Positions 4,219 to 64,000 of a stretch of 64,000 bases of DNA are shown here, piece by piece (the first letter of the stretch is position 1; every line of letters begins with the position of its first letter). Source of the DNA: Mesorhizobium sp. L2C084A000 (GTDB lineage: Bacteria > Pseudomonadota > Alphaproteobacteria > Rhizobiales > Rhizobiaceae); assembly GCF_000502875.1 (NCBI RefSeq), contig NZ_AYWX01000001.1, positions 1 through 64,000 of the forward strand, written 5' to 3'. A program made the position numbers and the translations under genes. The notes under the pieces were generated by a model. It saw only the letters and a list, made by a program, of their open reading frames with translations. It made no database searches and was not told where the DNA came from.

Positions 4219-4224
4219 GCGGAC

Positions 4225-5764: not shown

Positions 5765-5818
5765 CCGAACATTCTCCAGCAAAAAATCTTTGGCGGCCTA
5801 TTGAAGGCAATTTTGCGC

Positions 5819-5840: not shown

Positions 5841-5887
5841 CAAACACACCGTATACGATCAACTACCAATCCCAAGGAACTCACAAC

Positions 5888-6106: not shown

Positions 6107-6160
6107 CATAGCCGAAGCCAAACTTCACGGCGTCCAGCCTTCCTCCTCAAAGGACTTTCA

Positions 6161-38711: not shown

Positions 38712-39854
38712 ATGCAGTTCATCGATCTTGGCGCGCAGCGCGAACGAATCCGCGACCGGCTGAAGGCCGCGATCGACCGTGTCGTCGACGAAGGCCGTTA
38801 TATTCTTGGCCCGCAAGTCACCGAATTCGAGAATAAGCTTGCCGCCTATATCGGCACCAAGCATGTCGTGGCCTGCGCCAACGGCACCGACGCGCTGCTG
38901 TTGCCGCTGTTTGCGGCCGGCATCGGCCCGGGTGACGCGGTGTTCGTGCCGAGCTTCACTTTCGCCGCCACCGCCGAAGTGGTGGCGCTGGCCAAGGCCG
39001 AGCCGGTGTTCGTCGATGTCGACCCGCATAGCTACAACATCGACATTGCCAGCCTCGAAGCGGCCATCGCCATGATCAAGAAGCAAGGCCGGCTGAAGCC
39101 GAAGGCAATCATTCCCGTCGATCTGTTCGGCCTTGCCGCCGACTACGAGGCGATCATGGCGATCGCCAACCGCGAAGGGCTGATGGTGATCGAGGATGCC
39201 GCCCAGTCGATGGGCGGTTCGCTCGACGGCAAGATGTGCGGTGCTTTCGGCCATGTCGGATCGACCAGCTTCTATCCGGCCAAGCCGCTTGGCTGCTACG
39301 GCGATGGCGGCGCGATGTTCACCAATGATGATGCGCTGGCCGAGCAGCTCAGATCCTTCGCCTTCCACGGCAAGGGCGAAACGCAATATGACAATGTCCG
39401 CGTCGGCATCAATTCGCGGCTCGACACGATACAGGCGGCGATCCTGATCGAGAAGCTGGCCATCCTCGAAGACGAGATGGTTGCGCGCCAGGTGGTGGCA
39501 AAGCGCTATGCCGACGGGCTTGGCGACATCGTCACCGCGGCCCGCAATCTGGACGGCAGCCGTTCGGCCTGGGCGCAGTACGCCATCGAGACACCCAAGC
39601 GCGACGGGCTGAAGGCGCATCTCGGCGATAAGGGCATTCCGTCGGTCATCTACTATGTGAAGCCGCTGCATGCCCAGGTCGCCTATCGCGACTACCCGCG
39701 CACGCCGACCGGCCTGGCCGTTTCGGAAGACCTGCCGAAGCGTATCCTCTGCCTGCCGATGCACCCCTATCTCAGCGAAGCCGACCAGGACCAAATCATC
39801 GAGACGATCCGCAACTATATCGGCTCGAATTCAGCGCAGGCCGCAGCGGAGTAA
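38712..39854 (+). CDS. DegT/DnrJ/EryC1 sugar aminotransferase
   Basis: 380 residues, a PLP-dependent nucleotide-sugar aminotransferase. GTDALLLPLFAAGIGPGDAV is the N-terminal signature, VIEDAAQSMGG binds PLP phosphate, and the Schiff-base lysine lies in SFYPAKPLGCYGDGG near residue 190. Its start MQFIDLGAQRERIRDRLKAA resembles WbpE/WlbC-type enzymes acting on UDP-3-keto-GlcNAcA, but no matching wbpA, wbpB or wbpD is nearby, so the substrate is open. GAGG lies 5 nt before the ATG. It converges with cysQ, with 15 bp between stops. It probably makes an amino sugar for surface polysaccharide. Confidence 0.85.
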   Translation: MQFIDLGAQRERIRDRLKAAIDRVVDEGRYILGPQVTEFENKLAAYIGTKHVVACANGTDALLLPLFAAGIGPGDAVFVPSFTFAATAEVVALAKAEPVFVDVDPHSYNIDIASLEAAIAMIKKQGRLKPKAIIPVDLFGLAADYEAIMAIANREGLMVIEDAAQSMGGSLDGKMCGAFGHVGSTSFYPAKPLGCYGDGGAMFTNDDALAEQLRSFAFHGKGETQYDNVRVGINSRLDTIQAAILIEKLAILEDEMVARQVVAKRYADGLGDIVTAARNLDGSRSAWAQYAIETPKRDGLKAHLGDKGIPSVIYYVKPLHAQVAYRDYPRTPTGLAVSEDLPKRILCLPMHPYLSEADQDQIIETIRNYIGSNSAQAAAE

Positions 39855-44002: not shown

Positions 44003-45319
44003 TTGACCCGGCTTTCATCCCTGAGACAGCAATTCACGCCTTCGCGGATCAACAACTACTTCTCCATCCTTTGCTTCTTTTTTCCACCGGTTCTGGGATC
44101 GGTGGTCAGCTTCGTATTCAATGGCGGAGGCCTTTCGTCAGTCCTGCTGATTGCTTTACGGAAAAGGCGCTTCAACGCCGACCGGCCCATGATCTGGATG
44201 ACGGTCGCGATCTATGCCTACTGCGCCTCCAATCTCCTGGCTTCCATCGTCAACAATTCGTTCGCCCGGGATGCGCCGCATCTTATCCCGCTGGTGACCT
44301 TCCTGTTTTTCCCCGTGTCCTATTCGACCTGGAGCATCACGCAGAAAACCACGCTTGCCCGCATCATCGTGCTTTCCAGCATGGCCGCCTGCTTTGTCGC
44401 GCTGCTCATAGCCGTCATCCAGCAATATTGGATTGGCGTCAGGGCCGAGGGGGGAGCTGGAAATCCGATCGTGTTCGCAACCGTCGTCTGCCTTGCCGTG
44501 GTCATGTGTGTGGCTGGCGCCTTGTCCGGTATTGAGCAAGCCCGGACACCCCTCTTCTACGCGGCACTGGCCGGGACGATCGCCGTCATCTATTCCGGCT
44601 CGCGTATCGTCTGGCTGGCACTGCTGATCACCGGTATCGCCGTCATGCTGATCAACCGGCACAGGCTCAGAGGCAGGAATGCCGTTCGCCTGCTGCTGCT
44701 GCTGGCGGCGGTCGGCGTCGTGATCGCCGCTTCCAGCTTCCAGGCGATATCCGGGCGGGTCGACTTTTTGCGCTCCGATTGGGGTGCGCTTGGAGCCAGC
44801 GGCAACTACGACACCTCGCTGGGAATACGTGTTGCGCTTTGGGAGATCGGACTCAAAGCATTCCATGACATGCCACTGTTCGGGCACGGTGTGGGTGCAA
44901 CCCAGCTTCTGATCAACCAGGGCTTTCATGAGCAGTTCGCGATGGACACAGGCTTCAACCATTTTCACAACGGCTTCCTGACCGCCTTGGTGCAAGCGGG
45001 AATTCTGGGCGCCGTGACGCTGGCGGCGATCTTTATCGTTGCCGCTGGAAATGCCGTCCGGGTCTTGCGAAACAGCAGCGATCCGAGCGAGCGGTTCGGC
45101 GCGACCATGATTGTCGTCGTGGTGATCACCTATCTGACGGCCGGAATGACAGGCATCCTGATCGGCCATGACATTCTGGACTCGGTGCTGATGGTCTTCC
45201 TGGTGAGCGGAACATATCTCGCCTCCGGCCGCCAGGTTCCGTTGTTGGAAGAGCAGGCACCTGCGCCAGTGATGGAAGAGCGAGTAGTCAGCAAAGAGCT
45301 GTTTCGGGCAAGCCCATGA
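44003..45319 (+). CDS. O-antigen ligase / polymerase-family membrane protein
   Basis: 438 residues with about ten to eleven membrane helices and a large periplasmic loop. The loop region carries GHGVGATQLLINQGF, then FNHFHNGFLTALVQAGILG (about 315-333), the Wzy/WaaL family pattern with its conserved His. It would ligate O-antigen to lipid A-core or polymerise repeats at the periplasmic face. In an ABC-exporter locus (wzm/wzt at 50168-51815), ligation is the more likely role. The start is a TTG at 44003, the first plausible in-frame start, and is uncertain. It overlaps the SDR gene by 4 bp (ATGA). Confidence 0.82.
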   Translation: MTRLSSLRQQFTPSRINNYFSILCFFFPPVLGSVVSFVFNGGGLSSVLLIALRKRRFNADRPMIWMTVAIYAYCASNLLASIVNNSFARDAPHLIPLVTFLFFPVSYSTWSITQKTTLARIIVLSSMAACFVALLIAVIQQYWIGVRAEGGAGNPIVFATVVCLAVVMCVAGALSGIEQARTPLFYAALAGTIAVIYSGSRIVWLALLITGIAVMLINRHRLRGRNAVRLLLLLAAVGVVIAASSFQAISGRVDFLRSDWGALGASGNYDTSLGIRVALWEIGLKAFHDMPLFGHGVGATQLLINQGFHEQFAMDTGFNHFHNGFLTALVQAGILGAVTLAAIFIVAAGNAVRVLRNSSDPSERFGATMIVVVVITYLTAGMTGILIGHDILDSVLMVFLVSGTYLASGRQVPLLEEQAPAPVMEERVVSKELFRASP

Positions 45320-46263: not shown

Positions 46264-46806
46264 CTATCCGCTTCGGTAGAGCGTTCCAAACAGGATCCGA
46301 AAATCGAGCCAGAACGACGCAGTGCGGAGGTAGGCAGCATCCGTTTCGGCCAAAAGCTCCGGGTTCGACATGTCGATGCCCCTGATCTGGGCCAGGCCGG
46401 TTATGCCCGGCAGCGCCGCCAAAACCCCCAGCCGCCTGCGACACTCGATCAACTCCGTTTGGGTCGGCAGGCAGGGGCGCGGCCCGACCAGGCTCATTTC
46501 GCCCTTCAGGACGTTCCAGAATTGTGGCAGCTCGTCGAGCTTGAACTTCCGTAAGACCTTCCCGACCGATGTCACGGAATCCACCGGCGCCTCATGCGAG
46601 GGCAGTGACGGCGTCCCGACATACATCGTGCGCAACTTGTGGCAGCGAAAAAGCCGACCGTCACGGCCGACCCGCACCTGTGAAAAAATAGCCGGGCCCG
46701 GCGACGATGCCCGAACGGCAAGGACGGTGAGCGCCAAGACAGGAGATGTGGCCACCAGCAGCAGAGCCGCACCGGCAATATCGAAGATTTGCTTGGCTGC
46801 CTTCAT
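46264..46806 (-). CDS. Initiating sugar-phosphate transferase (WreU/WbaP-like)
   Basis: 180 residues from the ATG at 46806 (MKAAKQIFDIAGAALLLVAT); an upstream TTG (46857) is less likely. One N-terminal membrane hairpin is followed by the bacterial sugar transferase domain: FRCHKLRTMY, then KLDELPQFWNVLKGEMSLVG and PRPCLPTQ, then PGITGLAQIRG. These monotopic enzymes move a sugar-1-phosphate from UDP-sugar to undecaprenyl phosphate, starting chain synthesis. Its short form (no WbaP-like five-helix domain) is that of PglC/WreU. By context the sugar would be QuiNAc. It converges with the SDR gene, 12 bp apart. Confidence 0.88.
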   Translation of the reverse strand: MKAAKQIFDIAGAALLLVATSPVLALTVLAVRASSPGPAIFSQVRVGRDGRLFRCHKLRTMYVGTPSLPSHEAPVDSVTSVGKVLRKFKLDELPQFWNVLKGEMSLVGPRPCLPTQTELIECRRRLGVLAALPGITGLAQIRGIDMSNPELLAETDAAYLRTASFWLDFRILFGTLYRSG

Positions 46807-46928
46807 GAACGGCCGATAGTGCTCCCTGCCGAAGTCCCGAGGCAACGCCGCAGGCAAATGCCGTCAATCCGGTCGACGTAGCATGAGCCGATCTTTTGGC
46901 CAAGCGTGCCACGCACTCGTGCCAATGT

Positions 46929-47892: not shown

Positions 47893-49869
47893 CTAGCTCG
47901 CCTGCCCGGCCGTTTTCGGGATCGCGTCTTGACGTGCACTCTCCCTGGCCTTCTTGGCGCGGTCGAGACCTGCCAATGCGGCGAGCGCGGCAGCCTTGTC
48001 CTGGTTTTTCGCCGACTGCTGCAGCGCCGTGAGCGCGACCTGGACATCCGACCATTCCACGACGTCCGTGCTGAGGCCGAAAACCTTCGAGATGCCGAGT
48101 TCTACGAGTTCCTCGTCTTCGCCATGCAGCGTTTCGTGAAGTTTTTCGCCCGGCCTGATGCCGGTGAACCGGATCGCGATGTCCTTGTATGGGCTCTTTC
48201 CGGACAAGCGGATCATCGTTTCGGCCACTTCAAGGATCGGCACCGGCTTGCCCATGTCGAGCATATAGACGGCATAATCGTGTCCGCTCTGCCGCGACGC
48301 GGCATCGGCCGCCGACATGATGACGAGATCGACGGCTTCGGCCACGGTCATGAAATAGCGCGTCATGCGCCGGTCGGTGATGGTGACGGGCCCCCCAGCC
48401 TCGATTTGCGCCTGGAATATGGTCGCCACCGAACCATTGCTGCCGAAGACATTGCCGAACCGCACTGCAATGAACTTGGTGGCCGGGTCACGCCCGCCCG
48501 TCTGGCCATGCAAGGCGCTGATGATCTGTTCGGCGGCCCGCTTCGTCATGCCGAGCACTGATGAGGGATCCACCGCCTTGTCGCTCGATATCAGGACAAA
48601 TTGCGCAACCCCGCACTTGGCGGCAACTTCGGCGCAGACGAGCGTTCCGAAAATGTTGGTTTGAACGGCTGAATCCCAGTTTTCCTCGAGCAGCGGAACG
48701 TGCTTGAGCGCCGCGGCATGAAAGATGATGTCCGGCCGGAATTCCGTGACGACACGCGTTATCTGGCGCCGGTCCGCGACATCGACGATGCGGACCTTGA
48801 GCCGGTCATGGTCCTTCTCGTCAACATACTGGCTCAACTGGAAAATGCCGAACTCGGAGTTGTCGGCGACCAACACCGCCTCGGCTCCCAGTTCCAGCGA
48901 CCGCTTGACCAGCGTCTGGCCGATCGAACCGGCGCCGCCGGTCACCAGAACGCGTTTGCCGCTGACAAAGGCGCCGATGCGCTGGATGTCGGACGCGACC
49001 GCCGGACGGCGCAGGATCGTTTCCATCTCAACGGTGTCGAGAACCAGCTTTCCGTGCTGTTCCAGCTCCGAAAGGCCTGAGAACTGCACCACATTTATGT
49101 CGCCGTGCCGGGCAATGCGCACGAGTTCCGAATAGTCCTCGATTTCGTGCTCGGCGCCGCTGCCGAAAATCAGCAAGTCCAGGCTTTTGGTGCCGGTCGC
49201 ATAGTCTTCCAGGACATCGATCAGGCGCGGCATGGTCGCCACCACGGGAACACCTTGAATCCGCGTGCCCAACGGTGCGCCGCGCTCGGTCGCCATGATG
49301 CCGGCGATGGAATAGTCCGCCGGTTGCGCCGTGCGCGTGAAGCGAATGATCAGGTCGGCCTCGTCGAGCCGGCCGACGAACAGAGCGCGCTTGGCCTGCC
49401 TGATGTCGGTCTTGCGGCTCAGAATCCCCCAGCTCGCGCCGTCACGCAGGAAGCGGTAGAATAGCCGGGGTGCCGATATTATGGTGAAGGAGACGAGGAA
49501 GAAGACGATGAACTGACGCTCGTTGAGCCCCGCGACCGGCCGGTAAAACCGCAGCAGCAGCGACGCCACATAAAGAGTGAACGTCAAGATCGCGCAGCTC
49601 TTCAGGATGTTGAAAAAGTCCGGCGTCGAGGCGAAGCGCCAGACGGTGGTGTAGAGGCCACTGTAGCGGAACAGCAAATGGCTGATGACGACAATGCCCG
49701 CCCATGTCGCCAGACCCTCCTCGGAGAGCGCGTCGAACGAAAGATTCGACCGCGAAAGCACGAGGCTGAGTGCCACGGCGACCAGGACCATGACCACGTC
49801 CTGGACCATGATGAAGGCGCGCCGCATCTGTGGCCTGAGCCCGAACACAGCTTCGAGGTGGGAATTCAT
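47893..49869 (-). CDS. Membrane NDP-GlcNAc 4,6-dehydratase (WbpM/WreV-like)
   Basis: 658 residues. The N-terminal 150 residues contain four membrane helices, then a first Rossmann-like region and the SDR catalytic domain. The dinucleotide motif is VTGGAGSIGQTLVKRS near residue 308, and the active-site segment SSDKAVDPSSVLGMTKR near 426-442 has Met where classical SDRs have Tyr, which is normal for the WbpM/FlaA1 group. It converts UDP-GlcNAc to UDP-4-keto-6-deoxy-GlcNAc, the precursor of QuiNAc or FucNAc. It is followed 28 bp downstream by a GT2 gene. Together with the SDR at 45316 it would make UDP-QuiNAc. Confidence 0.9.
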   Translation of the reverse strand: MNSHLEAVFGLRPQMRRAFIMVQDVVMVLVAVALSLVLSRSNLSFDALSEEGLATWAGIVVISHLLFRYSGLYTTVWRFASTPDFFNILKSCAILTFTLYVASLLLRFYRPVAGLNERQFIVFFLVSFTIISAPRLFYRFLRDGASWGILSRKTDIRQAKRALFVGRLDEADLIIRFTRTAQPADYSIAGIMATERGAPLGTRIQGVPVVATMPRLIDVLEDYATGTKSLDLLIFGSGAEHEIEDYSELVRIARHGDINVVQFSGLSELEQHGKLVLDTVEMETILRRPAVASDIQRIGAFVSGKRVLVTGGAGSIGQTLVKRSLELGAEAVLVADNSEFGIFQLSQYVDEKDHDRLKVRIVDVADRRQITRVVTEFRPDIIFHAAALKHVPLLEENWDSAVQTNIFGTLVCAEVAAKCGVAQFVLISSDKAVDPSSVLGMTKRAAEQIISALHGQTGGRDPATKFIAVRFGNVFGSNGSVATIFQAQIEAGGPVTITDRRMTRYFMTVAEAVDLVIMSAADAASRQSGHDYAVYMLDMGKPVPILEVAETMIRLSGKSPYKDIAIRFTGIRPGEKLHETLHGEDEELVELGISKVFGLSTDVVEWSDVQVALTALQQSAKNQDKAAALAALAGLDRAKKARESARQDAIPKTAGQAS

Positions 49870-50167: not shown

Positions 50168-51067
50168 ATGCGTTGCCATATGCCCATCGAAATGGCTATT
50201 AGAGACGGGCTTGGTGGTTCGCTATGGCCAGCGAAGAATAATGCGCCAGAACAACGGATTGCGATACTCCCAGCTATGATTGCGGCACTAAACGGCGCTT
50301 TTGACGACATCTCAAAGGCCATGAGATTACACCGGGTCTGGATTGCGCTTGCCCATGAGGACATCGGCGACCAGCACAGACGCACGACGCTCGGCCCGCT
50401 TTGGATGCTGGTCAATTATCTGGCATTCATCGGCACTTTCATCTTCGTTTTCAAGACCAAGGACACGGATTCGGCCGGATACACGGCCTATGCCTCGATC
50501 GGCCTAGTTGTCTGGTTCTACCTTATGGAGATGATCAGCCTGAGCGTGCCCCTGTTCTCGCGCGAAGCCAGTTTCATTCAAGGTACGAGGCTGCCACTCT
50601 TCGTGTATGTGATGCGGCTGACGGTGCAATGTATCATCCGAGCGAGCTATTCGGTCGCGGGTTGCATCGTCATCCTGCTGCTGAGCGGTTTGGGAATCAG
50701 CGCTGAGTGGCTTTTGTCGATCCCGGGGTTGTTGCTGATTGTGCTCGCGACCCCTGCAATCGTAATGGTTTTCGCATTCCTGGGCGCATTCTTTCCCGAT
50801 GCTCAGTTCATCGTCGGCAACATCATGCGAGTCGGCACGTTTCTTACGCCAGTCTTCTGGGCCTATCATGGGCAAGGCGGTATACAGAACTATGCCTATC
50901 ATTGGAATCCGTTCACATATTTCCTGGAAGTGGTGCGTGCGCCAATCGCGAGCGGCGAATTCCCAACCCATCCCTTTGTTGTGACAGCCTACATCTCCTT
51001 GGCTTTCTGGGCGGTTGCGTTGCTGCTGCTGGGCGGATATCGCAAGCGCGTCGTTTTCCTGATCTGA
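50168..51067 (+). CDS. wzm: Polysaccharide ABC exporter permease Wzm-type
   Basis: Up to 299 residues, with six predicted membrane helices. The family opening HEDIGDQHRRTTLGPLWML (about 62-80) and the closing NPFTYFLEVVRAPIASGEF, as in KpsM/Wzm/RfbA, are clear. It forms the inner-membrane channel that exports lipid-linked O-antigen or capsule. The N-terminus is uncertain: ATGs at 50168, 50180, 50192 and 50276 are in frame and none has a strong ribosome site; the last gives 263 residues, close to family length. It is followed 7 bp later by the ATPase gene. Confidence 0.9.
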   Translation: MRCHMPIEMAIRDGLGGSLWPAKNNAPEQRIAILPAMIAALNGAFDDISKAMRLHRVWIALAHEDIGDQHRRTTLGPLWMLVNYLAFIGTFIFVFKTKDTDSAGYTAYASIGLVVWFYLMEMISLSVPLFSREASFIQGTRLPLFVYVMRLTVQCIIRASYSVAGCIVILLLSGLGISAEWLLSIPGLLLIVLATPAIVMVFAFLGAFFPDAQFIVGNIMRVGTFLTPVFWAYHGQGGIQNYAYHWNPFTYFLEVVRAPIASGEFPTHPFVVTAYISLAFWAVALLLLGGYRKRVVFLI

Positions 51068-53390: not shown

Positions 53391-54122
53391 TTAGCGGGCG
53401 TGTTTCCGTGCCAAATATACTTCTGTAAATTCGCCTACTATTCCGTGCCAGTGATCGTGAAAACGGCACACCTCGACGTCCATTCCTGACCACCGGTGGA
53501 TCAGTTCTGGAAGGTCATAGCCGTAGTGAAATGTTACCAGCGAACCAGCATCGCTAACCGGATTCCCATGATATTCCGGCTCGCCGGTGTGCTGGATCGT
53601 TCCGTCCGGCCTGTAGAGCGCACGGCGCTCACTGTCGATCTTGCCCTTGTAGGTGGGAACGGTGAACAGGTAAGCGCCGCCTGGTTTCAGGGTGCGGACA
53701 ATCTCCTTTGTCACCCGCTCCGGCATATTCACATGCTCCATGACATCAAGTGTAACGACGACATCGAAAGTCGCATCACCAAATGTCTGCGCCTCCAAGT
53801 TCTCGTTTCGGAAGCCCTTGACGGACGAGCCCAAACGCTCTCCGGGAAAGTACTGCGATTCAACATACCCGGCACATTCCCGCTTCAACTTCGGAGAAAT
53901 CCCGCGGGGAGTGGGAGAGGATTCATGAATAACAAGGTTGCGCCAACGAGGGATATGTCGCGTGAGCGTAAGAGCCAAAGCGCGCTCGCGCGGGATCGAT
54001 CCACATCTGGAGCAGAGCAGATGATCACGATACCAATCATAGTTGGCGGAAAACTCGACATTGGCTTCACAGATTGGGCAGTAACCTGCCCGGCGGTAAA
54101 CTGGATGAGAATCGGAATTCAT
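53391..54122 (-). CDS. Zn-ribbon class I SAM methyltransferase
   Basis: 243 residues. The N-terminus is a zinc-ribbon-like unit: CPIC at about 15-18 and CSRCG at about 37-41, followed by RERALALTLTRHI. The methyltransferase core is reduced at motif I, but ATFDVVVTLDVMEHVNMPE (about 117-135) and LKPGGAYLFTVPTYKG (about 144-159) are classic Methyltransf_11 elements. The C-terminal part has several His and Trp (FHDHWHG). It would methylate a sugar or lipid in polysaccharide synthesis; the substrate is unknown. It lies 75 bp downstream of the pyruvyltransferase-like gene on the same strand. Confidence 0.8.
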   Translation of the reverse strand: MNSDSHPVYRRAGYCPICEANVEFSANYDWYRDHLLCSRCGSIPRERALALTLTRHIPRWRNLVIHESSPTPRGISPKLKRECAGYVESQYFPGERLGSSVKGFRNENLEAQTFGDATFDVVVTLDVMEHVNMPERVTKEIVRTLKPGGAYLFTVPTYKGKIDSERRALYRPDGTIQHTGEPEYHGNPVSDAGSLVTFHYGYDLPELIHRWSGMDVEVCRFHDHWHGIVGEFTEVYLARKHAR

Positions 54123-54197: not shown

Positions 54198-55310
54198 CTA
54201 CTCTAGCCGGTGGGCAACCCCATTTTCCGAAAGGAATTGGGCAAAACGATCATATAGAACAGTGTACTTGCGCTGAAACTCATCATAGTTACCAGCCTGC
54301 ACAAGCTCGTGGACGTCCAATTGTCCCACTTTATCGACCGGGATGTGCGGGATGCTCATAAGTTCCGCCATTTCCGTCGTCCTCGAATCATGGGAAATTA
54401 TGGTTGCAGGAACACCGTTGGTTAATGCGATCAGGTTTCCATGGAAGCGCGTTCCTACCGAATAGTCAAACTTCGAGATGTACGCATCCCACTCTGCCAG
54501 ATCAAAGAACATTTTTGCGTCCTCTTTGACGTGCTTTACATAGAGCGACGGATCCATTTCCATGTTCATCTGCCCGAGCACTGCCTGGGCGACCTCAAAA
54601 TCATCTTCTCTCCCATCTCTGGAAAGTAGCATTTTCATTTCCGGTTCTTCGTTCTGAAGAACATATGGATATTTTTTATGAGCGGATAATTTCAAAAGAT
54701 CAGCTTCAACGCGCCGGGCAGCTTCGGGATTGGCCGAATGAAGAAATACGTTGCGTGATCCGTTCACTGCAACTCTCAGTTCGGCGTCTCTTCCTGGCCT
54801 CTTTATCTTCAAGTCCGGACGCAATTTGCGAAACAAACTTGGGCATCCAACCTCTTTGACGTTCTTTATCGCAAAGTCATTCATGACTTCAGCCGTAAAA
54901 TGGCCACGCACGCCCACGGTCTTGCTGCGTTCCGATATGATACGAAGGAAGCGTTTACTGCCCTCTGGGATATCTGTGACTTTGTCACCGATGATAGAAG
55001 CTTGCGCCCCGAGGCCGGCAACCAGGCATGGCAGCTTGGTCGGCTCGATAAAGTCAGCCAAATAGGACAAATCAAAATTTTTGAAAATGAAATTCGCTGC
55101 GGCGATAGCAATGATGTCGAAACGTTCGTTTGCTTCTTGCGGGGAATAGCCCAACCCCTGACCGAACTCTTCAAAGCGAAGTTCCTCGAATAGAGACTGC
55201 CCTATCAGAAGGTTTCCGGTGTTGTATCCAATGATTTCGAATTTCTTTTCAAAAGCAATCTGCGGATCAGGATGCGGAGCTATTGGCGCTCCCAGAAAAA
55301 GAACTCTCAC
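54198..55310 (-). CDS. Polysaccharide pyruvyltransferase family protein
   Basis: 370 residues starting at GTG (55310) with GAGGAG 6 nt upstream. The domain of the PS_pyruv_trans family is recognised by GYNTGNLLIGQSLFEEL near the N-terminus, SERSKTVGVRGHFTAEVM in the middle and the late motif DYSVGTRFHGNLIALTNGVP (about 281-300) with the conserved RFHG. These GT-B fold enzymes transfer pyruvate from PEP as a ketal to sugars. Many members are divergent, so the exact reaction is uncertain. GC content is visibly lower than in the flanking rml genes. It is 54 bp downstream of the giant gene. Confidence 0.85.
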   Translation of the reverse strand: MRVLFLGAPIAPHPDPQIAFEKKFEIIGYNTGNLLIGQSLFEELRFEEFGQGLGYSPQEANERFDIIAIAAANFIFKNFDLSYLADFIEPTKLPCLVAGLGAQASIIGDKVTDIPEGSKRFLRIISERSKTVGVRGHFTAEVMNDFAIKNVKEVGCPSLFRKLRPDLKIKRPGRDAELRVAVNGSRNVFLHSANPEAARRVEADLLKLSAHKKYPYVLQNEEPEMKMLLSRDGREDDFEVAQAVLGQMNMEMDPSLYVKHVKEDAKMFFDLAEWDAYISKFDYSVGTRFHGNLIALTNGVPATIISHDSRTTEMAELMSIPHIPVDKVGQLDVHELVQAGNYDEFQRKYTVLYDRFAQFLSENGVAHRLE

Positions 55311-55364: not shown

Positions 55365-58300
55365 TCATTCTTGAATTGGGATACCAAATCGTTCACTGAG
55401 TTCACGGGCGTAGACGCTCGCCCGTTCAAGCGCGGCAGATCCAAGATCGTGGCTGCGGATTGTGTTGGCCTGTACCTGCCTGATCTCCTGTAGATGCCTG
55501 AGATCGAAATTTCCTATGGTTACGCTCGACTGATGCCGCCGGTGTGAATTGAGCGAACGCGGGGAAAAAGCGATCGAACCATTTTCGAGCAGACGCAAAT
55601 ATGTCACCCAATCCCCGGCGTTGCGCAACGACATGATCTCTTCGCTGTGTTTGGCCAGTGCATTCCTGAGCGCCTCCCTTCGAAACAAGACGCCACTGAC
55701 GTTCGGAATGGTGTTCTTAAGGTAAAGCGCCTCGGCGATTTCCTGGCGGCCGTCCACGACGTAGGGTTTCGTCCAGCGAGACCGGTCGATGTCCGACACA
55801 TAGTCGAGATAGTGTTCGGACAGAACCCGGCCGGCGCCGTCCATCTGGCGCGACTGGCAGTAGCTCATCACCACCTCCTCACGTTCGAAGGCGGGCAGAA
55901 GCTCGGCCAGAAAATCGGGATCGGCGAGGTCGTCGGCTTCGGCGATCCAGACATAATCGCCGCGCGCCATTTCGACCCCCCGCATCCATTGGCGGAATAC
56001 CGAGCCTGAATTCTGCGCATTGACGACCAGCCGGTATGGGATGTCGCAACCGGCCAGAAATTCCTCGATGACTTCTACGCTTTCATCGGTCGAAGCATCG
56101 TCAAGCACGATCAACTCGTAGGGCTTTATCGTCTGATCGACGATGGAGCCTAGACGTGCGCCCAGGTATGGGGCGTAGTTGTAGTTCGGCACGATGACCG
56201 ACACCCGCGGCAGCGGCCTTTCGGCGTAAATCAGCAGGTCATGTAGGTATTGGCTGAAGCTGAATTCCTGGCGGACAATATCCCGGCCAACGCTGGCGAG
56301 ACGCCGGGCTTCACTTGGATTGTCGAGCAGATTGCCAATGACCTCGGCCATCGCATCGGTGTCGAATGCCTGCACGAGGATTCCGCAATCCCGCTTCAGC
56401 AGATCCTGGAAGCCACCAGCGCCCTCAAAGGCAACGACCGGCACTGTGGCATCCAGCGCCTCAAGCACCACCGAAGGGAACGGATCTTCACGCGAGGTCA
56501 AGGCGTAGATATCAGCGGCGAAATAGTATTCCTGCGGATTTTCCACCAATCCGACAAAGACGAAGCGGCCCTCCAGTCCCGCTTCCTTCACACGCCGCAT
56601 TTGCTTGGCGTGAAAGACAGTATCGACATGACCGACCCAGACTGCAACCGCATCCGGCCTGGATGCCATCACCTTGAGGCAAGCATCAACGAAAAGATCG
56701 AGGCCCTTGCGATGGTCGGCATAGCCCGCGCACAGTATGATGCTTGCGTTGGTCGAAAGCCCTAATCTTGCGCGGACCGCCTCGCGGACCTGCTGGCGAT
56801 CATCGGCGAGATAGGGCGTACGCAGATAGAGTCCTTGCGGCCTGACTACCGACTGGCTGACCGGTTGGCCAACAAACTCTTCGAATCCGGCTTTGACGAT
56901 CTCGGCTGGGAAAACGACCGTGTCAGCGCTCTCAGCAATGGCTGCGGCTGCGTCAGCAAGACCGTAGGACGCCAATATTCCGGGCAGTTCGTGGACGAGG
57001 CAAACGGTGCGGAACCCCGCCTGCTTCAGCAGCGGGACGAGCTTTCCGGATACGGTGGTATTCACGACGGCGACCTCGGCACCGTTGTTTCTAATGGTGG
57101 CCAGGCGTTTCAACACATCGGCATCGCCTTGTTCAGGCAAGTCGATCCTGTGCACGGTCGCGGCGTGGGCGAAACGGCCGAGCAGCGGCCCGTCGCCCAG
57201 CACGATGAGATCGGGCTCAAAACCAAGCCGCTTAAATCCCTTGGCCACATTGAGAGCCAGCAATTGCGCCCCATGCGGGTGGGCGTCGTGGGAAACGATT
57301 GCAATCCTTGCCTTGGAGATCCCCTTCGCCGCCTCCAAAGCGTCGCGGGTCGCTTGCAGATAGGCGTGGCCGTTAACGCTATCGGGCTCCAGGTGAGCGC
57401 CTTCCGCCCACTCGTTCCAGGCATTGACGAAAACCAGCCGCTCGGATGGCTCGCTAATATGGGCCAAGGTGTCCTCAATAGCATTGTCCAGCCATCTGCG
57501 ATACAGCGCGGGGGTGTTGTTGATGAACACCGTGCCACCGCGCTTGCGGCGTGCGGTATTGTCCCAGCCCGGGCAAACCGAACGGAAGAGCTTGTATTTG
57601 CGGGATGAATAGGTTTCGCTGCGTTGTGGGAATACCGACCAGTCATAGACGGTCGTGGCAAAATCCTCATGCAGCGGCGTCACTGTATGCGTGACATTTG
57701 GCGGCGCGGAATTGTTTGGCGGAAATTCCACTGCGGCATCGAACCCGTAGCGGTGGGGAGGCACAGATTCGAAGGACTGGGTGTAGGCTAGGAAAATCTC
57801 GCCAACACCATTCTCCCGGCACCAGGTCCGCCAGCGCCGCGCTGTCTCACCCGCCGCCGGGAGCAGGCTTGGTCGGTAGACCAGCAACAGCGGCTTGCCA
57901 TCGATGCGGATGTAGCGAGGGTCACGGAGATAAGGCGCGACCTCGGCGATAAAGGCGAGGTCGTCCTGGGGGGAGTGATCCTGCGCGATGAGGATTTCCT
58001 GGTCCATCCCGTCCCAGCGACGCGACCAGTTCTCGTTGGCCCAGCAGACGCAGAACGGCATGTCGAGGCTCTTGTCCCCGAGCCAGTTCTCAAGCGGCTT
58101 TTCCAGAAGCCGCTTGCCGGCGAACCAATAAAAATAGAAGCAGAAACCTTCCACGCCATAGAGCTTTGCCAGCTCTATCTGGCGGCGCTGAACTGCAGTG
58201 TCGCGCAGATCATAATACCCGAGCGCATCCGGCACGTGCGGCTGGTGATGGCCGATAAATTGCGGCTCAGCGGGCCTCACATTGGTCCATTCGGTGAAGC

Positions 58301-59948
58301 CCTGCCCCCACCATTCATCGTTTTCGGGGATCGGGTGGAATTGCGGCAGGTAGAACGCGATGACGCGCACCGGCTTCTGGAGCAGTGGCGGCGCCTTGAG
58401 AACCGGCACATAGACGGGTTCGGGCGCAAAGATCGGACCGGAACTGACCAGCGCCCCGCGCAAGACCATCTCGTTGCTGCCCAAAGGCGTTTGGGGTGCC
58501 TCCATGCTTCTCCAGGCGCGGTAGGCATTTGTAACGCCAAACAGCGAAGGAAAGGTCGAAAACGCTGCTCTCTTCAATTTTCGCTTGAGGTCGATGGAGA
58601 GCGGCAGATTGTGCCAACAAGCGTAAGCGCCGCGAATTGCCAAGCGGCGGATCGTCATGCGAGCGGTGCCGATAGCGTGGACGCGGCTCCCAATCCCGCG
58701 CAGAGGCTTGGTCACTCGCCAGGATGTGCTGGCATAAACGGCATCGAGAACCTCATGCAACCGGATTTCCTCGGATCGCGCCTCGTCGCGATCCGCAAGC
58801 AGCGCACTCGTCGCCCTGTGCGCCATCGACAAATTTTGTTGCAGGAGCTCGATCTCCTTGTCTCTCGCAATGATCTGTGTCCGCCCTTGAGCAATCTCGT
58901 CGTCTCTTGCGCTGACTTGTGTCCTTGCGCTTGAGATCTCGTCTTTGTAGGTCCGGATTTGTTCTCGCATTTCAGCCATCTCGCTGGAGAAAGCCTCGAT
59001 ACGCGCCCCATGATGCCCCACCAATTTCCGGTTGGTTTCGATCTCCTCCTCCATCGTTGTTGACTTCAACGACCATGGATTTCCGGTTTGATCGATCGCC
59101 TTGCTCTTCGTCTCGTCGAGAAGAACCACGCTCCCGTCGGCGAGCGCGACCCGCCCGTGCACGTTGCGCGCGCCCAGGACGTTTTCCGGAATTGGCAGCT
59201 TCGTTACAATGCAAAGCGAGTTCAAGAACTCGACGGAATGAACCGATGCGAGAGAAGCTTCATCAAATGCGACTTGGTGCCTGTCGGCGAAAATCGCCAA
59301 GGCATCGACCCGACGGCGATCCAGCCCCCAATGCTCATGGTTGACCACATCAAGCAGACGCTTGAAAAACGACATCGAGGAAAGCGGATCGTAGAGACCG
59401 CCCTCGAACTCCTGCCAGTAACTGCAATGCAAATCCTCGGCGAGGTACATGCCCCCTTCGGAAAGATGGGGGAAATATCGTGCGAACGAGCGTATTATAT
59501 CCGAGGATAGGTGCGATCCGTCATCAATTATAATATCATACTTTTCCGACATCGAGATGATGTCGCGCTCTGTTTCATCAGTATTGGCGTCACCTACGGA
59601 GATCTTTATCTTCCGGCTGTCGAAAACGAGATTCCCGCAAGCCAGATTGACGTCACAACCAACGATTATTTCAGCATTGGGGAAATATTTCTGCCATATC
59701 TCCAGGGATCCGCCATTCTGAACTCCGATTTCCAGGATTCGAACCGGCCTGTCTCGATACTCTGAAAAAATATGGTCGTAGGTGCTGAGATAGATCGACC
59801 ATTTATCCGACACTTTGCCGCGATGCGCGTCGTACAGGTCACGAAGTGAAAGAGCCTGCTTTGCAGGCCTTGCCGTTTTGGCTTTGGCGCGTGCCTTGCC
59901 GGCAGGCATCGCATCGCGCGTGTTTTCCGCTGAAGGGTGCTTGTTCAT
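55365..59948 (-). CDS. 1527-residue multidomain MTase-coil-GH99-GT4-GT2 protein
   Basis: A very large cytoplasmic protein with five recognisable parts. Residues about 35-260 form a class I methyltransferase of the CmcI/rhamnosyl-O-methyltransferase kind (RILEIGVQNGGSLEIW, then IIIDDGSHLSSDI). About 295-400 is a coiled coil with a 14-residue repeat (GRTQIIARDKEI preceded by ARTQVSARDDEI). About 527-870 is a GH99/WbsX-like domain (VIAFYLPQFHPIPENDEWWG, ending FVNAWNEWAEGAHLEPD). About 880-1235 is a GT-B family 4 transferase (GYADHRKGLDLFV, SREDPFPSVVLEALD). About 1245-1500 is a GT-A family 2 transferase (VSVIVPNYNYAPYL, EADDLADPDF). It is translationally coupled to rmlD by a 4-bp overlap, so dTDP-rhamnose is a plausible donor. 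No frameshift is seen. Confidence 0.88.
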   Translation of the reverse strand: MNKHPSAENTRDAMPAGKARAKAKTARPAKQALSLRDLYDAHRGKVSDKWSIYLSTYDHIFSEYRDRPVRILEIGVQNGGSLEIWQKYFPNAEIIVGCDVNLACGNLVFDSRKIKISVGDANTDETERDIISMSEKYDIIIDDGSHLSSDIIRSFARYFPHLSEGGMYLAEDLHCSYWQEFEGGLYDPLSSMSFFKRLLDVVNHEHWGLDRRRVDALAIFADRHQVAFDEASLASVHSVEFLNSLCIVTKLPIPENVLGARNVHGRVALADGSVVLLDETKSKAIDQTGNPWSLKSTTMEEEIETNRKLVGHHGARIEAFSSEMAEMREQIRTYKDEISSARTQVSARDDEIAQGRTQIIARDKEIELLQQNLSMAHRATSALLADRDEARSEEIRLHEVLDAVYASTSWRVTKPLRGIGSRVHAIGTARMTIRRLAIRGAYACWHNLPLSIDLKRKLKRAAFSTFPSLFGVTNAYRAWRSMEAPQTPLGSNEMVLRGALVSSGPIFAPEPVYVPVLKAPPLLQKPVRVIAFYLPQFHPIPENDEWWGQGFTEWTNVRPAEPQFIGHHQPHVPDALGYYDLRDTAVQRRQIELAKLYGVEGFCFYFYWFAGKRLLEKPLENWLGDKSLDMPFCVCWANENWSRRWDGMDQEILIAQDHSPQDDLAFIAEVAPYLRDPRYIRIDGKPLLLVYRPSLLPAAGETARRWRTWCRENGVGEIFLAYTQSFESVPPHRYGFDAAVEFPPNNSAPPNVTHTVTPLHEDFATTVYDWSVFPQRSETYSSRKYKLFRSVCPGWDNTARRKRGGTVFINNTPALYRRWLDNAIEDTLAHISEPSERLVFVNAWNEWAEGAHLEPDSVNGHAYLQATRDALEAAKGISKARIAIVSHDAHPHGAQLLALNVAKGFKRLGFEPDLIVLGDGPLLGRFAHAATVHRIDLPEQGDADVLKRLATIRNNGAEVAVVNTTVSGKLVPLLKQAGFRTVCLVHELPGILASYGLADAAAAIAESADTVVFPAEIVKAGFEEFVGQPVSQSVVRPQGLYLRTPYLADDRQQVREAVRARLGLSTNASIILCAGYADHRKGLDLFVDACLKVMASRPDAVAVWVGHVDTVFHAKQMRRVKEAGLEGRFVFVGLVENPQEYYFAADIYALTSREDPFPSVVLEALDATVPVVAFEGAGGFQDLLKRDCGILVQAFDTDAMAEVIGNLLDNPSEARRLASVGRDIVRQEFSFSQYLHDLLIYAERPLPRVSVIVPNYNYAPYLGARLGSIVDQTIKPYELIVLDDASTDESVEVIEEFLAGCDIPYRLVVNAQNSGSVFRQWMRGVEMARGDYVWIAEADDLADPDFLAELLPAFEREEVVMSYCQSRQMDGAGRVLSEHYLDYVSDIDRSRWTKPYVVDGRQEIAEALYLKNTIPNVSGVLFRREALRNALAKHSEEIMSLRNAGDWVTYLRLLENGSIAFSPRSLNSHRRHQSSVTIGNFDLRHLQEIRQVQANTIRSHDLGSAALERASVYARELSERFGIPIQE

Positions 59949-60847
59949 GCCGTCAATGCCTGTTTCGTCTCACCGGCTAGGAGCCGGTGCACCACCGCCC
60001 CCGTCGATTGACGCCAGTCCGGCGCCCTCCACCCGAACACGTCGGCGAATTTCGCGCTCGACAGCCGGGAATTGGCGGGGCGGCGCGCCTTGGTCGGATA
60101 ATCCATCGTAGCAATGTCCCGTACCCGCGCCCAAGGACCACCCAACACGCGGCTTGTGTCCAGGATATGGCGGGCAAAGCCGCTCCAGTTGGCCTCGCCG
60201 GTTCCGGTCAGATGATAGATGCCGGATGTGGCGGCGCCGTCGTGCAGCTGTGCCGCCGCATGCAGGATCGCGTCGGCGATATCAAGTGCCGATGTCGGAT
60301 TTCCCCACTGATCGGCCACCACCGCGATCTCGTCGCGGTCGGCGGCCAGCCGCAGCATGGTTTTCACGAAATTCTTGCCGAACGGACTGTAGACCCATGC
60401 CGTGCGCAGGATCAGATGGCGCGGATTGGCTGATGCAACCGCCTGTTCGCCGGCAAGCTTGGAGGCGCCATAGACGCTGGCTGGTGCGGTCGCGTCGGTC
60501 TCGACATAGGCGGCGTCCTTGGTGCCGTCGAAGACATAGTCAGTCGATAGATGGATGACGGGAACGCCAAGCAGCGCCGCCGCTTGCGCCACCTTGCCGG
60601 CGCCGACGGCGTTCACCGCGAATGCCAGATCGGGCTCGTCCTCGGCCTGATCCACCGCCGTGTAGGCGGCAGCCGACACGACGATACCCGGCTTCGCGGC
60701 CGCGATGGCTTCGATCACCGTGTCAGGTCTTGCAAGGTCGAGTTGCGGACGGCCAATGGCTATGACCTCAACGCCGTCGGCCGCCTGGCCGGCCTCCGCA
60801 AGGCTCGCCGCGACCTGTCCGTCGCGTCCGGTGACAACCAGCCTCAC
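59945..60847 (-). CDS. rmlD: dTDP-4-dehydrorhamnose reductase
   Basis: 300 residues. SDR dinucleotide motif [16 protein letters not shown] (about 4-19); catalytic region [13 protein letters not shown] and [12 protein letters not shown] (Tyr and Lys at about 126-130). It reduces dTDP-4-keto-L-rhamnose to dTDP-L-rhamnose with NAD(P)H. Fourth gene of the rmlACBD cluster; it overlaps rmlB by 4 bp and the giant glycosyltransferase gene by 4 bp. Length is typical and no residues are missing. Confidence 0.95.
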
Positions 60848-61914
60848 GCCGCCCCCTTGCGTGCTTCGCCCAGCCGTTCACCGGCATAGCGCTGCTCGCG
60901 GATCGGTCCCCACCACCATGTGTTGTCGAGAAACCAGTCGACGGTCTTGGCGAGGCCGCTGTCGAAATTCTCATTGGGCGCCCAGCCCAGGTCCCGGCCT
61001 ATCTTCGAGGCGTCGATGGCATAGCGGCGATCGTGACCGGGGCGGTCGGTGACGAAGGAAATCAGGTCGCGATAGCTCTTGCCCCCTGCCCGCGGCCGCC
61101 TGCTGTCGAGCAGATCGCAGATCGTCTCGACGACGCCAAGGTTCGTCCGCTCGGAATTGCCGCCGACATTGTAGCTTTCGCCGGGCAGTCCCCTGGTCGC
61201 GACAAGTTCCAGCGCGCGTGCGTGATCCTCGACGAACAGCCAGTCGCGCACATTGGCGCCGGCGCCATAGACCGGCAGCGGCTTTTCATCGAGCGCATTG
61301 AGGATGACCAGCGGGATCAGCTTTTCGGGAAAGTGATAGGGTCCGTAATTGTTCGAGCAATTGGAAAGCACGACCGGCAGGCCATAGGTTTCGTGCCAGG
61401 CCCGCACCAGATGGTCCGAGGCCGCTTTCGAGGCGGAATAGGGCGAGGATGGGGCGTAGGGCGTTTCCTCGACGAACATGCCGCCATCGAAGGGAAGATC
61501 GCCGAACACCTCATCAGTCGAGACATGATGGAAGCGGAAATGGCTCTTCCTGTCTTCGGGCAGGCCGCGCCAGTATTCCAGCGCGGCATTGAGCATCTTG
61601 TAGGTGCCGACGATGTTGGTTTCGATGAAGGTGCCCGGCCCATCGATCGAGCGGTCGACATGGCTCTCGGCGGCAAGGTTCATGACGATGTCGATATCGT
61701 CGCGCCGGAGGATGTCGAGCACCGCCTTTTCGTCGCAGATATCGGCCTGCGCGAAGCGATAATTGTGTGCGTTCTCGATCGGCCGCAGCGAGGCCAGGTT
61801 TCCCGCATAGGTAAGCTTGTCGAGATTGGTCACCCGATAGGCCGGGTTGGCGCATAGATGCCGGCACACCGCGGAACCGATAAAGCCAGCACCGCCCGTC
61901 ACCAGAAAATTCAT
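60844..61914 (-). CDS. rmlB: dTDP-glucose 4,6-dehydratase
   Basis: 356 residues. It has [16 protein letters not shown] (about 5-20), [15 protein letters not shown] with the active-site Asp/Glu pair, and [14 protein letters not shown] with the catalytic Tyr/Lys. [11 protein letters not shown] is typical of RmlB. It converts dTDP-glucose to dTDP-4-keto-6-deoxyglucose using bound NAD. It overlaps rmlD by 4 bp and is 22 bp downstream of rmlC. Confidence 0.96.
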
Positions 61915-61936: not shown

Positions 61937-62488
61937 TCAGGCGAACACCTCGGCGGCAGCCAGTAGCGGCGCCTTGAGGTCCTTGTCCGAGAGTTGGAAC
62001 CCGCCGGTCAATGACGGCCATTCGATGCCGATGTCGGGATCGTCGAAACGGATCGACCGATCATGCGCCTGCGAATAGGTGTCGGTCACCTTATACAGGA
62101 CCTCGGTGTCAGGCACGAGCGTCACGAAGCCGTGCGCGAAGCCTTTCGGCACCAGAATCTGGTTGCCCTTTTCGGCCGACACTTCGAGAGCGACCCATTT
62201 TCCGAATGTTTTCGAACCGCGGCGAATGTCGACGGCCACATCGAGAATGCTGCCCCGGATGACGCGCAGCAGCTTGTCCTGCGCGCGCGGCGCAAGCTGA
62301 TAATGAAGCCCTCGCAAGACGCCCGCCGCGGCGGAATAGGAATGATTGTCCTGCACGAAAGCCAGGTCTATGCCGGCCTGCGAAAAGCGCTCGGCATTGT
62401 AGGTTTCCACGAAGAAGCCGCGCGCGTCGCCATGTCGCTTCGGCACGATTTCCAGCACGCCATCGATGCCAAGGGGCCTGACCTCCAA
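61937..62488 (-). CDS. rmlC: dTDP-4-dehydrorhamnose 3,5-epimerase
   Basis: 183 residues, a cupin-fold epimerase. Typical motifs: [18 protein letters not shown] (about 18-35), [20 protein letters not shown] with the catalytic His in the next HYQL, and [14 protein letters not shown]. It epimerises C3 and C5 of the 4-keto intermediate. It follows rmlA by 3 bp. The start is an ATG at 62488. All active-site residues seem present. Confidence 0.95.
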
Positions 62489-62491
62489 CGC

Positions 62492-63373
62492 CTAGCCCTC
62501 CGACAGGTCGACGACACGCCGGCGCAGATAGGCGGCATATTCATTCTTGCCCAGGTGGTCGGCGCGACGCAGAACCTGGTCCACTGTCAGCCAACCCTGT
62601 TCAAAGGCGATCTCTTCGGGACAGGCGACCTTGATGCCCTGGCGGTGCTCGATGGTGCGCACGAATGACGAGGCCTCATGCAGGCTGTCATGCGTGCCGG
62701 TGTCGAGCCAGGCAAAGCCGCGCCCCAACCGATGCACATGCAACTGGCCGCGCTCGAGGTAGACGTTGTTGACCGCCGTGATCTCGAGCTCGCCGCGCGC
62801 CGAGGGACGGATGGCAGGGGCGATGTCGACGACGTCGTTGTCATAAAAGTAGAGACCGGTGACCGCCCAGTTGGATTTCGGCACCTGCGGCTTTTCCTCG
62901 ATCGTCAGCGCCGTTCCCGTGGCCTTGTCGAAGGAAACCACGCCATAACGCTGGGGATCCTCGACATGATAGGCGAACACCGAAGCGCCCTTTTCGCGCG
63001 AGGCAGCGTCGCGGCAAAGCTGCGACAGCCCATCGCCGAAATAGATGTTGTCGCCGAGGATCATCGACACGTTGTCCTTGCCGATGAAATTGCGGCCGAT
63101 GATGAAGGCCTCCGCCAGCCCGTTGGGCTGCGGTTGCTCGGCATAGGACAGGTCGAGGCCGAACTCCGATCCATCGCCAAGCAGATCGCGAAAAATCGGC
63201 AGGTCACGCGGCGTCGAAATGATCAGAATTTCACGGATACCCGCGAGCATCAGAACGCTCAGCGGATAATAGATCATCGGCTTGTCGTATATCGGCAGAA
63301 TTTGCTTAGAGACTGCTAATGTTAGTGGATAAAGACGCGTTCCACTGCCTCCAGCAAGGATAATTCCTTTCAA
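62492..63373 (-). CDS. rmlA: Glucose-1-phosphate thymidylyltransferase
   Basis: 293 residues. The nucleotidyltransferase motif is [20 protein letters not shown] (about 3-22), then [20 protein letters not shown], with the product-binding [12 protein letters not shown] at about 106-117 and [20 protein letters not shown] near 158-177. It makes dTDP-glucose from dTTP and glucose-1-P, the first step to dTDP-rhamnose, and so depends on Pgm (gene at 23295). First gene of rmlACBD; the 144 bp upstream up to the partial ligase gene should contain the promoter or be transcribed through. Confidence 0.96.
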
Positions 63374-63517: not shown

Positions 63518-64000
63518 CTATCGTCTTGCCAAGGCCGGCCTGACGGGAACAAGCAGATTGTCATCATGGGCCTCGGTCGACTCGCCTCTCTGGCTTAACC
63601 GCCCAGCGAATCCCTTGTGAAAGATGATGCCATTCATATAGGCGAAAGTCATCGCAAGCGCCGCCGTTCGCATGGGATAATCGACCAGGGAATGAACGAG
63701 CAGAAACGATACTGAGAGAAATGCCATTTTCTGCAGCGGATCTCGCCGTGCCGCAAGGGAAAACGCAAAAAGCAATACCGAGTAGGCCGCGACCAGAAAG
63801 ACAACAGGCGCGCCACCTTCAAGTGCCAACTCCAGATAATCATTGTGGGCGTGATTGACGTAGGGCTTGAAGATCATCTCTCCCTTTTCGTAAATCTGGT
63901 AGACTTTCGGAAAACTCCCAAAGCCGACGCCCGTCGCCCAGTTCTCTTCAATTCCCGCGATCGTCGTGCGAGCAAATTCGGCCCGTCCAAAGGCCGGATC
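63518..64000 (-). CDS. O-antigen ligase/polymerase family protein, 5' end cut
   Basis: The 3'-terminal 160 residues of a membrane protein whose start lies beyond the right edge. The readable part begins DPAFGRAEFARTTIAGIEEN, continues GVGFGSFPKVYQIYEKGEMI and then NHAHNDYLELALEGGAP, the Wzy_C signature with conserved His, followed by three membrane helices and a charged tail of about 30 residues. This is the second ligase/polymerase-type gene of the region and differs clearly from that at 44003. It could polymerise a separate polysaccharide or be a second ligase. It is on the same strand as rmlA and 144 bp upstream of it. Confidence 0.85.
   Translation of the reverse strand, partial: DPAFGRAEFARTTIAGIEENWATGVGFGSFPKVYQIYEKGEMIFKPYVNHAHNDYLELALEGGAPVVFLVAAYSVLLFAFSLAARRDPLQKMAFLSVSFLLVHSLVDYPMRTAALAMTFAYMNGIIFHKGFAGRLSQRGESTEAHDDNLLVPVRPALARR

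Follow-up and report, generated by a model that had tools for sequence, protein, structure and literature searches.

A giant Mesorhizobium protein that may unite polymerase, coiled-coil ruler and methyl-capping enzyme for an O-polysaccharide

The subject here is a single giant gene in a 64,000-nucleotide stretch of Mesorhizobium sp. L2C084A000 (positions 1 to 64,000 of contig NZ_AYWX01000001.1, called the window below), and we think, with a probability of roughly 60%, that its product combines a polymerase, a ruler and a methyl-capping enzyme in one chain and makes a rhamnose-type (6-deoxyhexose) O-polysaccharide by the ATP-binding cassette (ABC) transporter pathway. The open reading frame (ORF) starts with ATG on the minus strand and encodes 1527 amino acids (aa), to which all residue numbers refer, and Pfam profiles and structural models place in it, from the N-terminus, a methyltransferase, a coil helix, a basic linker, a WbsX domain and two glycosyltransferase (GT) modules of families GT4 and GT2 (Table 1). 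A sequence-only reading of this DNA, made earlier, had drawn the frame to the same extent and had proposed a methyltransferase, a coil, a GH99-like domain and two glycosyltransferases; the frame is there as claimed, and the domain assignment is borne out by Pfam matches, a match to the sugar O-methyltransferase MycE, the AlphaFold2 helix and the fold search. In NCBIfam, the best 25 of 48 matches to the protein all lie far under their curated cut-offs.

The scheme that we have in mind is quite simple. The C-terminal GT4 and GT2 modules would act as one polymerase unit, extending a lipid-linked chain at the membrane, with the basic segment after the coil keeping the protein nearby and the coil placing the N-terminal methyltransferase about 16 nm away. 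A chain long enough to reach the methyltransferase would be methylated on a hydroxyl of its terminal sugar and would stop growing, and coil length would thereby set the modal chain length. Ruler models of this sort are described as established in two systems, Escherichia coli O9 and Klebsiella O12 (available text of PMC11231755), and in WbdD the ruler was shown through coil insertions and truncations (available text of PMC5082667); a methyltransferase with a coil has also been proposed as a ruler in E. coli O101 (available text of PMC13168486). For the coil in the window protein, a ruler function is likely.

The evidence begins with the coil itself, which sits, long and continuous, between the methyltransferase and the GT part, as in the ruler-terminator class, with the methyltransferase directly ahead of it and the GT modules after it in a terminator-type layout. 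AlphaFold2 predicts one helix over model residues 269-376 (protein residues 299-406), with a predicted local distance difference test (pLDDT) value of 90 to 97 in about 70 of the 108 residues, falling to 59-84 toward the end of the helix. The same best heptad phase is found in 10 of 10 coils (those of the window, eight intact relatives and the genome G325, leaving out G430), and the phase score is reached, per coil, by only 0 to 0.55% of 2000 shuffles. Within the window coil, two adjacent 14-residue units match at 9 of 14 aa and 28 of 42 nucleotides, which is above chance (not reached in any of 3000 plain shuffles or of 3000 with the heptad phase preserved); the sequence-only reading had called this repeat near-exact, which overstates it, since Tandem Repeats Finder, run on the window, reports no repeat in the coil and the repeat shows only by direct comparison, real as it is. 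The basic linker that follows is a possible membrane contact, which we infer, as we do an oligomer of the coil.

Coil length changes among relatives, and it does so in regular steps. A family-level search covered 297 genomes, only five of them of the genus, and a genus search of 146 genomes was used instead, in which the methyltransferase-coil part was found in 28 at E <= 1e-40. The full order of methyltransferase, coil, WbsX, GT4 and GT2 occurs in 11 of the 28, window included, and 15 others, when dissected, have no WbsX in the same frame as the methyltransferase-coil part (the remaining two, G421 and G342, were not dissected). Counted as residues from NPWSL (NPWSP in G430) to STSW, the coil spacing is 103 in G349 (LNHC252B00), G309 (M. 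erdmanii USDA 3471), G297 and G347, 117 in the window, G271 and G355 (Root102), 131 in G332 (M. norvegicum 10.2.2) and G073 (B2-4-15), and 152, the longest seen, in G325 (L173). These spacings represent 12, 14, 16 and 19 heptads, or about 14.0, 16.0, 18.1 and 21.2 nm at 0.1485 nm per residue, and they are equal modulo 7 in 10 of the 11 proteins.

Tandem duplications in the DNA accompany these steps. Root102 has a duplication of 42 bp in its coil (40/42 identical) and B2-4-15 one of 84 bp (81/84 identical), both of them recent expansions at the DNA level, and the G325 coil holds an exact 21-bp repeat together with a 42-bp one that is 40/42 identical. In the window, Root102 and B2-4-15 the duplicated blocks sit at differing places in the coil, which we take to mean three or more independent expansions, the site of the duplication being the sole means of distinguishing them. 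The earlier suggestion that the coil can change length through its repeats thus finds support in the heptad-step lengths and the tandem duplications, mainly in sister species. By comparison, and as a control, every one of the 10 intact proteins has a methyltransferase segment of 246 aa (window residues 40-285) and a WbsX segment of 350 aa (521-870), while the linker varies by at most 3 residues, GT4 by 10 and GT2 by 1, leaving the coil as the part with the largest length variation. Natural coil-length variation in such rulers was the subject of no paper, judged by title and start of abstract, among the literature matches listed, a search that left subscription journals largely uncovered.

The enzyme ahead of the coil belongs with MycE and SpnK, to which it is related in both fold and sequence. 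Pfam gives only a weak match (PF13578, E 0.0094, 17.3 bits, under the cut-off of 26.3), and phmmer finds MycE (3ssm) at E 1.7e-24 and SpnK at 3.2e-19. The AlphaFold2 model of the methyltransferase-coil part has a mean pLDDT of 78.9, exceeding 90 across most of the methyltransferase domain, and in VIA this domain matches MycE at Z 25.1 (203 residues, root-mean-square deviation 1.9) and SpnK at Z 24.6, the next protein in the ranking being a tRNA methyltransferase at Z 17.0; Foldseek likewise returns MycE/SpnK as the best solved relatives (E 9.2e-16). In MycE the metal is bound by Asp275 and Asp304, and the conserved active site comprises Tyr208, Asp275, His278 and Asp304 (available text of PMC9275233). 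Three of these four published residues are kept, the equivalents of Asp275, His278 and Asp304 being D143, H146 and D172, all invariant in a 40-sequence alignment. Relatives of MycE methylate 6-deoxysugars, and the family member ThnM1 targets the 2-OH of L-rhamnose, according to the same source (PMC9275233), although these are free-standing natural-product enzymes. No kinase is found among the Pfam matches, and none would fit between the end of the methyltransferase (about residue 285) and the start of the helix (299), and the enzyme is by type a direct sugar O-methyltransferase without a kinase. Separately, a Deltaproteobacteria metagenome-assembled genome (L132) has a 587-aa frame with two tandem MycE-type methyltransferase domains.

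Comparison with known systems helps to define what is, and is not, distinctive. The terminator of WbbB from Klebsiella pneumoniae O12 adds a 3-deoxy-D-manno-oct-2-ulosonic acid (Kdo) cap. As proposed here for the window protein, WbbB combines a polymerase with a coil ruler and a terminator in one chain, but its three modules are all glycosyltransferases (GT99, GT102 and GT103; available text of PMC11231755). In K. pneumoniae O7 ORF6, the terminator, coiled coil and two C-terminal GT modules using thymidine diphosphate (TDP)-rhamnose are also in one protein, but there a methyltransferase-kinase serves as terminator and yields methylphosphate, its closest structure being CgnL, not MycE, both GTs of the protein are GT2, and the available text of the paper mentions no WbsX (PMC11231755). 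WsaE, of the Geobacillus stearothermophilus S-layer glycan, has an N-terminal O-methyltransferase and two GT modules in one chain; it caps rhamnose by 2-O-methylation, its two GT domains are rhamnosyltransferases and its cluster includes wzm, wzt and rml, whereas no ruler coil or WbsX is mentioned for it in the available text, and the likeness is one of description (PMC2943079). WbdD, to which the sequence-only reading had pointed, has an N-terminal methyltransferase, which in E. coli O9a rides on a long length-setting coil; it is separate from the polymerase WbdA, and the O9a protein has a kinase, where the window protein has none, while the O8 WbdD is a simple methyltransferase (available text of PMC5082667 and PMC3482155). 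WbdD was absent among the best 60 phmmer, 50 Foldseek and 50 VIA rows for the methyltransferase. What stands of that likeness is the pairing of methyltransferase and coil, the protein being nearer in kind to WsaE or O8 WbdD than to O9a WbdD; fusion to the polymerising enzymes, which the earlier reading had singled out, is present too, yet is not new in kind, given WbbB, O7 ORF6 and WsaE. Overall, the nearest counterpart of the window protein seems to be WsaE as regards chemistry and O7 ORF6 as regards layout.

The GT modules behave as a unit in evolution, which suits the idea of a single polymerase. The GT2 motifs DD, EADD and GDW are kept in 10 of 10 proteins, and the GT4-GT2 part falls into class A (window, G271, G355, G349, G332, G073 and G347) and class B (G309, G297 and G430), with GT4 and GT2 identity between the classes of about 47-56%. 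In the methyltransferase tree, G309 pairs with G073 (support 100/100), and G297, G347 and G430 form one 100/100 clade, unresolved inside, in which G297 and G347 share 88% identity. In the GT4-GT2 tree, G309 instead pairs with G297 (99/97) within class B (100/100), and no branch of the WbsX tree is well supported. These conflicting methyltransferase and GT4-GT2 trees therefore mean different histories for the two parts, and would suit a polymerase unit, with GT4-GT2 swapped in one piece from lineage to lineage. The methyltransferase-coil part is itself found in other settings, joined to GT2-GT2, GT2-GT4 or RgpF-GT2-GT2, or alone in a 445-aa frame. This free 445-aa form is seen in Mesorhizobium sangaii and M. 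sophorae (L068 and L069), resembling a WbdD-style separate ruler. In three other loci (L066, L067 and L073), a stretch without a Pfam match at the threshold used lies between the coil and two GT2 modules, and could be a carbohydrate-binding domain, such as the one reported in Klebsiella O7 ORF6.

WbsX is present once in the genome, matches PF14307 at E 2.8e-136 (455.6 bits, against a curated cut-off of 25.1) and, at 82-96% identity over all pairs of the 10 intact proteins, is their most conserved part. Its model is of moderate quality (mean pLDDT 66, predicted template modelling score 0.75), and with it Foldseek ranks GH99 at the top (4acz, E 2.1e-9, template modelling (TM) score 0.53), while in VIA the glycoside hydrolase-like protein 5ngw scores Z 21.9 and GH99 scores 19.2. 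A profile search against GH99 is weak (E 0.022 and 0.17, the latter to 4ad1), aligning NEWAEG with the NEWHEG of GH99, and phmmer against PDB sequences gives no match, so it is because of the fold and this weak profile match that we link WbsX to GH99; the fold match backs the earlier description of the domain as GH99-like. The glutamates E846 and E849, invariant in a 10-sequence alignment, correspond in the weak alignment to the GH99 pair of which E333Q and E336Q variants are named in PDB entry titles. WbsX thus resembles the GH99 endo-alpha-mannosidases in barrel fold and E-W-x-E catalytic pair, but is only about 16% identical to them. Across the literature covered, no assignment of the WbsX reaction was found. 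In phage-resistant isolates of Burkholderia gladioli, truncating mutations are reported in a large O-antigen gene, wbsX (available text of PMC13391952), and these fit a role in O-antigen synthesis.

With both GH99 glutamates in place, WbsX probably acts on the part of the chain that is shared, whether as a transferase, a transglycosidase or a trimming enzyme. The last of these choices, taken further, provides a rival account in which WbsX is a working GH99-type hydrolase and cutting of the chain, not a ruler, sets its length. The fold, the retained glutamate pair and the conservation of WbsX above all other parts of the protein are what one would cite in favour of this; we nevertheless think it very unlikely, as Pfam names the WbsX family a glycosyltransferase, two same-family genomes (L044 and L049) have WbsX in fusion with RgpF rhamnan-synthesis modules and, from their entry titles, GH99 enzymes act on mannosides. 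Besides RgpF, the partners of WbsX include another methyltransferase type and a weak sulfotransferase match below cut-off. Three loci of same-family genomes (L047, L048 and L057) hold two WbsX matches each.

As in the ruler class, a Wzm/Wzt exporter is encoded at the locus, and it is here that descent and local gene content pull in different directions. In a survey of 96 loci, a Wzt-like frame was found in 44 (three of them duplicates). Its tail is at most 23 aa in all 14 distinct loci from Mesorhizobium and other Alphaproteobacteria, and 181-223 aa in 18 of the 27 other loci (none labelled alphaproteobacterial, two labelled only Proteobacteria); all five long tails that were tested proved to be the cap-reading domain Wzt_C, so this methyltransferase family is often found in cap-and-reader loci elsewhere. 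These patterns support, by descent, a capping role for the methyltransferase, and count against the classical scheme in Mesorhizobium.

Several observations do weigh against a ruler and cap in the window protein. We know of no O-chain structure for this strain, and among the lipopolysaccharide (LPS) literature matches listed there was none tied to any strain with the giant protein. A profile search finds no Wzt_C (PF14524) in the 246-aa Wzt or in the whole genome, and therefore the known mode of cap reading would be lacking, in which the C-terminal domain of Wzt recognises the cap and capped O antigens depend on this domain for export (available text of PMC9445017); this missing domain argues against a complete WbdD scheme here, and 9 of the 27 Wzt frames outside the Alphaproteobacteria also have no long tail. 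More widely, Wzt_C gave no match in 24 of 29 genomes tried, and among the 11 genomes with the full architecture there is a strong match in G430, elsewhere in the genome, and one below cut-off in G349. The loop that bears Tyr208 in MycE is absent from the window protein in the phmmer alignment (numbering minus 20 for the tag, by manual count). WsaE is reported to methylate in vitro whatever the chain length (available text of PMC2943079). With respect to the coil, the spacing of 121 in G430 is off the heptad series (1 of 11), the G325 gene is broken across three frames, which may be an error of assembly or a decaying gene, and outside the coil none of 10 distinct pairwise gaps divides evenly by 7, though 7 of the 10 are single residues, making this a weak control for the heptad rule.

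A different explanation, which gathers up a number of these points, is that the methyltransferase decorates the chain, internally or at random, and that the coil is an oligomerising stalk whose length drifts neutrally by slippage, steps other than whole heptads being lost because they would break the coil. The heptad steps could be a by-product of slippage in such a mere stalk, because repeats with a period of 7 or 14 residues would slip in whole units unaided, and this mechanical cause, slippage in a repeat already heptad-periodic, would favour whole-heptad steps without selection. The Wzt without a cap-reading domain also suits decoration. So does some chemistry from within the genus: the O-chain of M. 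loti NZP2213 is of 6-deoxytalose, with about one 2-O-methyl-6-deoxytalose per 33 in the wild type and about two per 15 in an oatB mutant (available text of PMC6274867), and the mutant figure is more like decoration than a single cap. As chemistry for the giant protein itself, this case was set aside and kept as a within-genus parallel, since no locus titled M. loti is among the 80 retained out of 458; the wild-type ratio fits one cap per chain and the mutant ratio less so. We judge decoration somewhat unlikely, given that a long-tailed Wzt, a known sign of a terminal cap, accompanies the same methyltransferase family so often outside the Alphaproteobacteria, and that in the Klebsiella systems treated in the available text of PMC11231755 the coil carries the terminator at its far end. 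In E. coli O101, isolates whose coil methyltransferase is disrupted continue to produce a polysaccharide, changed in composition (available text of PMC13168486), so export does not necessarily require an enzyme of this kind.

The surroundings of the giant gene bear on its likely substrate and product. Upstream on the same strand lie rmlD, rmlB, rmlC and rmlA, a full rhamnose set, each scoring above the cut-off of one equivalog model, and the coupling to rmlD and the rhamnose use that had been suggested from the sequence are upheld, by the 4-base ATGA overlap and by all four genes adjoining the giant gene, respectively. RmlD scores as such, so that a 6-deoxytalose enzyme is not indicated, although the TIGR01214 model may be unable to tell these enzymes apart. 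The cluster is flanked by two Wzy_C-type genes (44003-45319 and 63518-64000), and a second polysaccharide pathway or an O-antigen ligase may be nearby. Since more than one polysaccharide may be made here, the product could be another exported polysaccharide and not an LPS O-chain, with the same enzymology; this we regard as unlikely, because the genome has a single Wzm match and an initiating transferase is encoded at the locus. Wzm plus an initiating transferase in one locus is the usual arrangement for ABC-dependent O-chains. Elsewhere in the window are a DegT-type sugar aminotransferase gene near the cluster (38712-39854) and, at 1825-8946, VapE/DUF5906-type and phage-integrase family genes that suggest an integrated element; no tRNA was found in the window.

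Table 1. Features of the giant gene and its surroundings, in window coordinates
Feature	Coordinates	Strand	Basis or remark
Giant gene	55365..59948	-	1527 aa, six parts; ORF and Pfam
MycE/SpnK-type S-adenosylmethionine- and metal-dependent sugar O-methyltransferase, residues 31-285	59094..59858	-	phmmer, VIA
DDGSH motif, residues 142-146	59511..59525	-	D143 ~ MycE D275 (metal), H146 ~ H278; numbering by manual count
ED, residues 171-172	59433..59438	-	D172 ~ MycE D304 (metal)
Coil, residues 299-406	58731..59054	-	One predicted 108-residue helix, 14 heptads in single phase
Two 14-residue (42-bp) repeat units, residues 336-363	58860..58943	-	Direct comparison
STSWRVTKPLR motif and basic linker, residues 407-520	58389..58730	-	16 K/R against 3 D/E in 407-500
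WbsX, GH99-type barrel, residues 529-867	57348..58364	-	PF14307
EWAE, residues 846-849	57402..57413	-	E846/E849 ~ GH99 pair E333/E336; weak profile alignment, manual count
GT4 module, residues ~876-1240	56229..57323	-	PF00534/PF13692; PF00534 E 4.5e-22
GT2 module, residues ~1243-1527	55368..56222	-	PF00535 E 3.2e-28
rmlD	59945..60847	-	TIGR01214 315.2 bits, cut-off 224.05; ATGA overlap with giant gene
rmlB	60844..61914	-	TIGR01181 480.2 bits, cut-off 365.1
rmlC	61937..62488	-	TIGR01221 213.5 bits, cut-off 155.75
rmlA	62492..63373	-	TIGR01207 485.9 bits, cut-off 360.65
Polysaccharide pyruvyl transferase family gene	54198..55310	-	PF04230 5.4e-21; next gene downstream of giant gene
Second methyltransferase gene, different Pfam family	53391..54122	-	PF08241 1.5e-10; downstream of giant gene
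Initiating sugar-phosphate transferase family gene	46264..46857	-	PF02397
CapD/PseB-like nucleotide-sugar dehydratase	47893..49869	-	PF02719 3.7e-95; PseB model below its cut-off
Wzm exporter membrane subunit	50168..51067	+	Sole match to it in genome
Wzt exporter ATPase, 246 aa	51075..51815	+	Without C-terminal cap-reading domain

What is new here is the set of heptad-stepped coil lengths with their tandem duplications, the single Wzm without a Wzt_C reader and the exchange of GT4-GT2 as a block. In the literature covered, parts of which were available as partial text, no description was found of the combination of a MycE-type enzyme with WbsX, of heptad-stepped natural lengths or of the missing cap reader. 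A broader proposal, which we put forward tentatively as a possibility short of even odds, is that a methyl-capping ruler fused to its polymerase, and working without a cap reader in the exporter, may constitute a third kind of ABC-dependent O-chain system in Mesorhizobium, its length tuned by tandem duplication of whole-heptad blocks and a GH99-fold enzyme forming part of the synthase. The absent cap reader raises the question of how such chains are released and exported, and WbsX now has a place in a defined assembly in which its role becomes testable. Of particular interest, close strains that share the same polymerase class have coils of 103, 117 and 131, and seem to provide a natural counterpart of the WbdD coil experiment; if their O-chains were stepped in the same order, ruler length would be an evolvable dial, and the increment per heptad would be directly readable.

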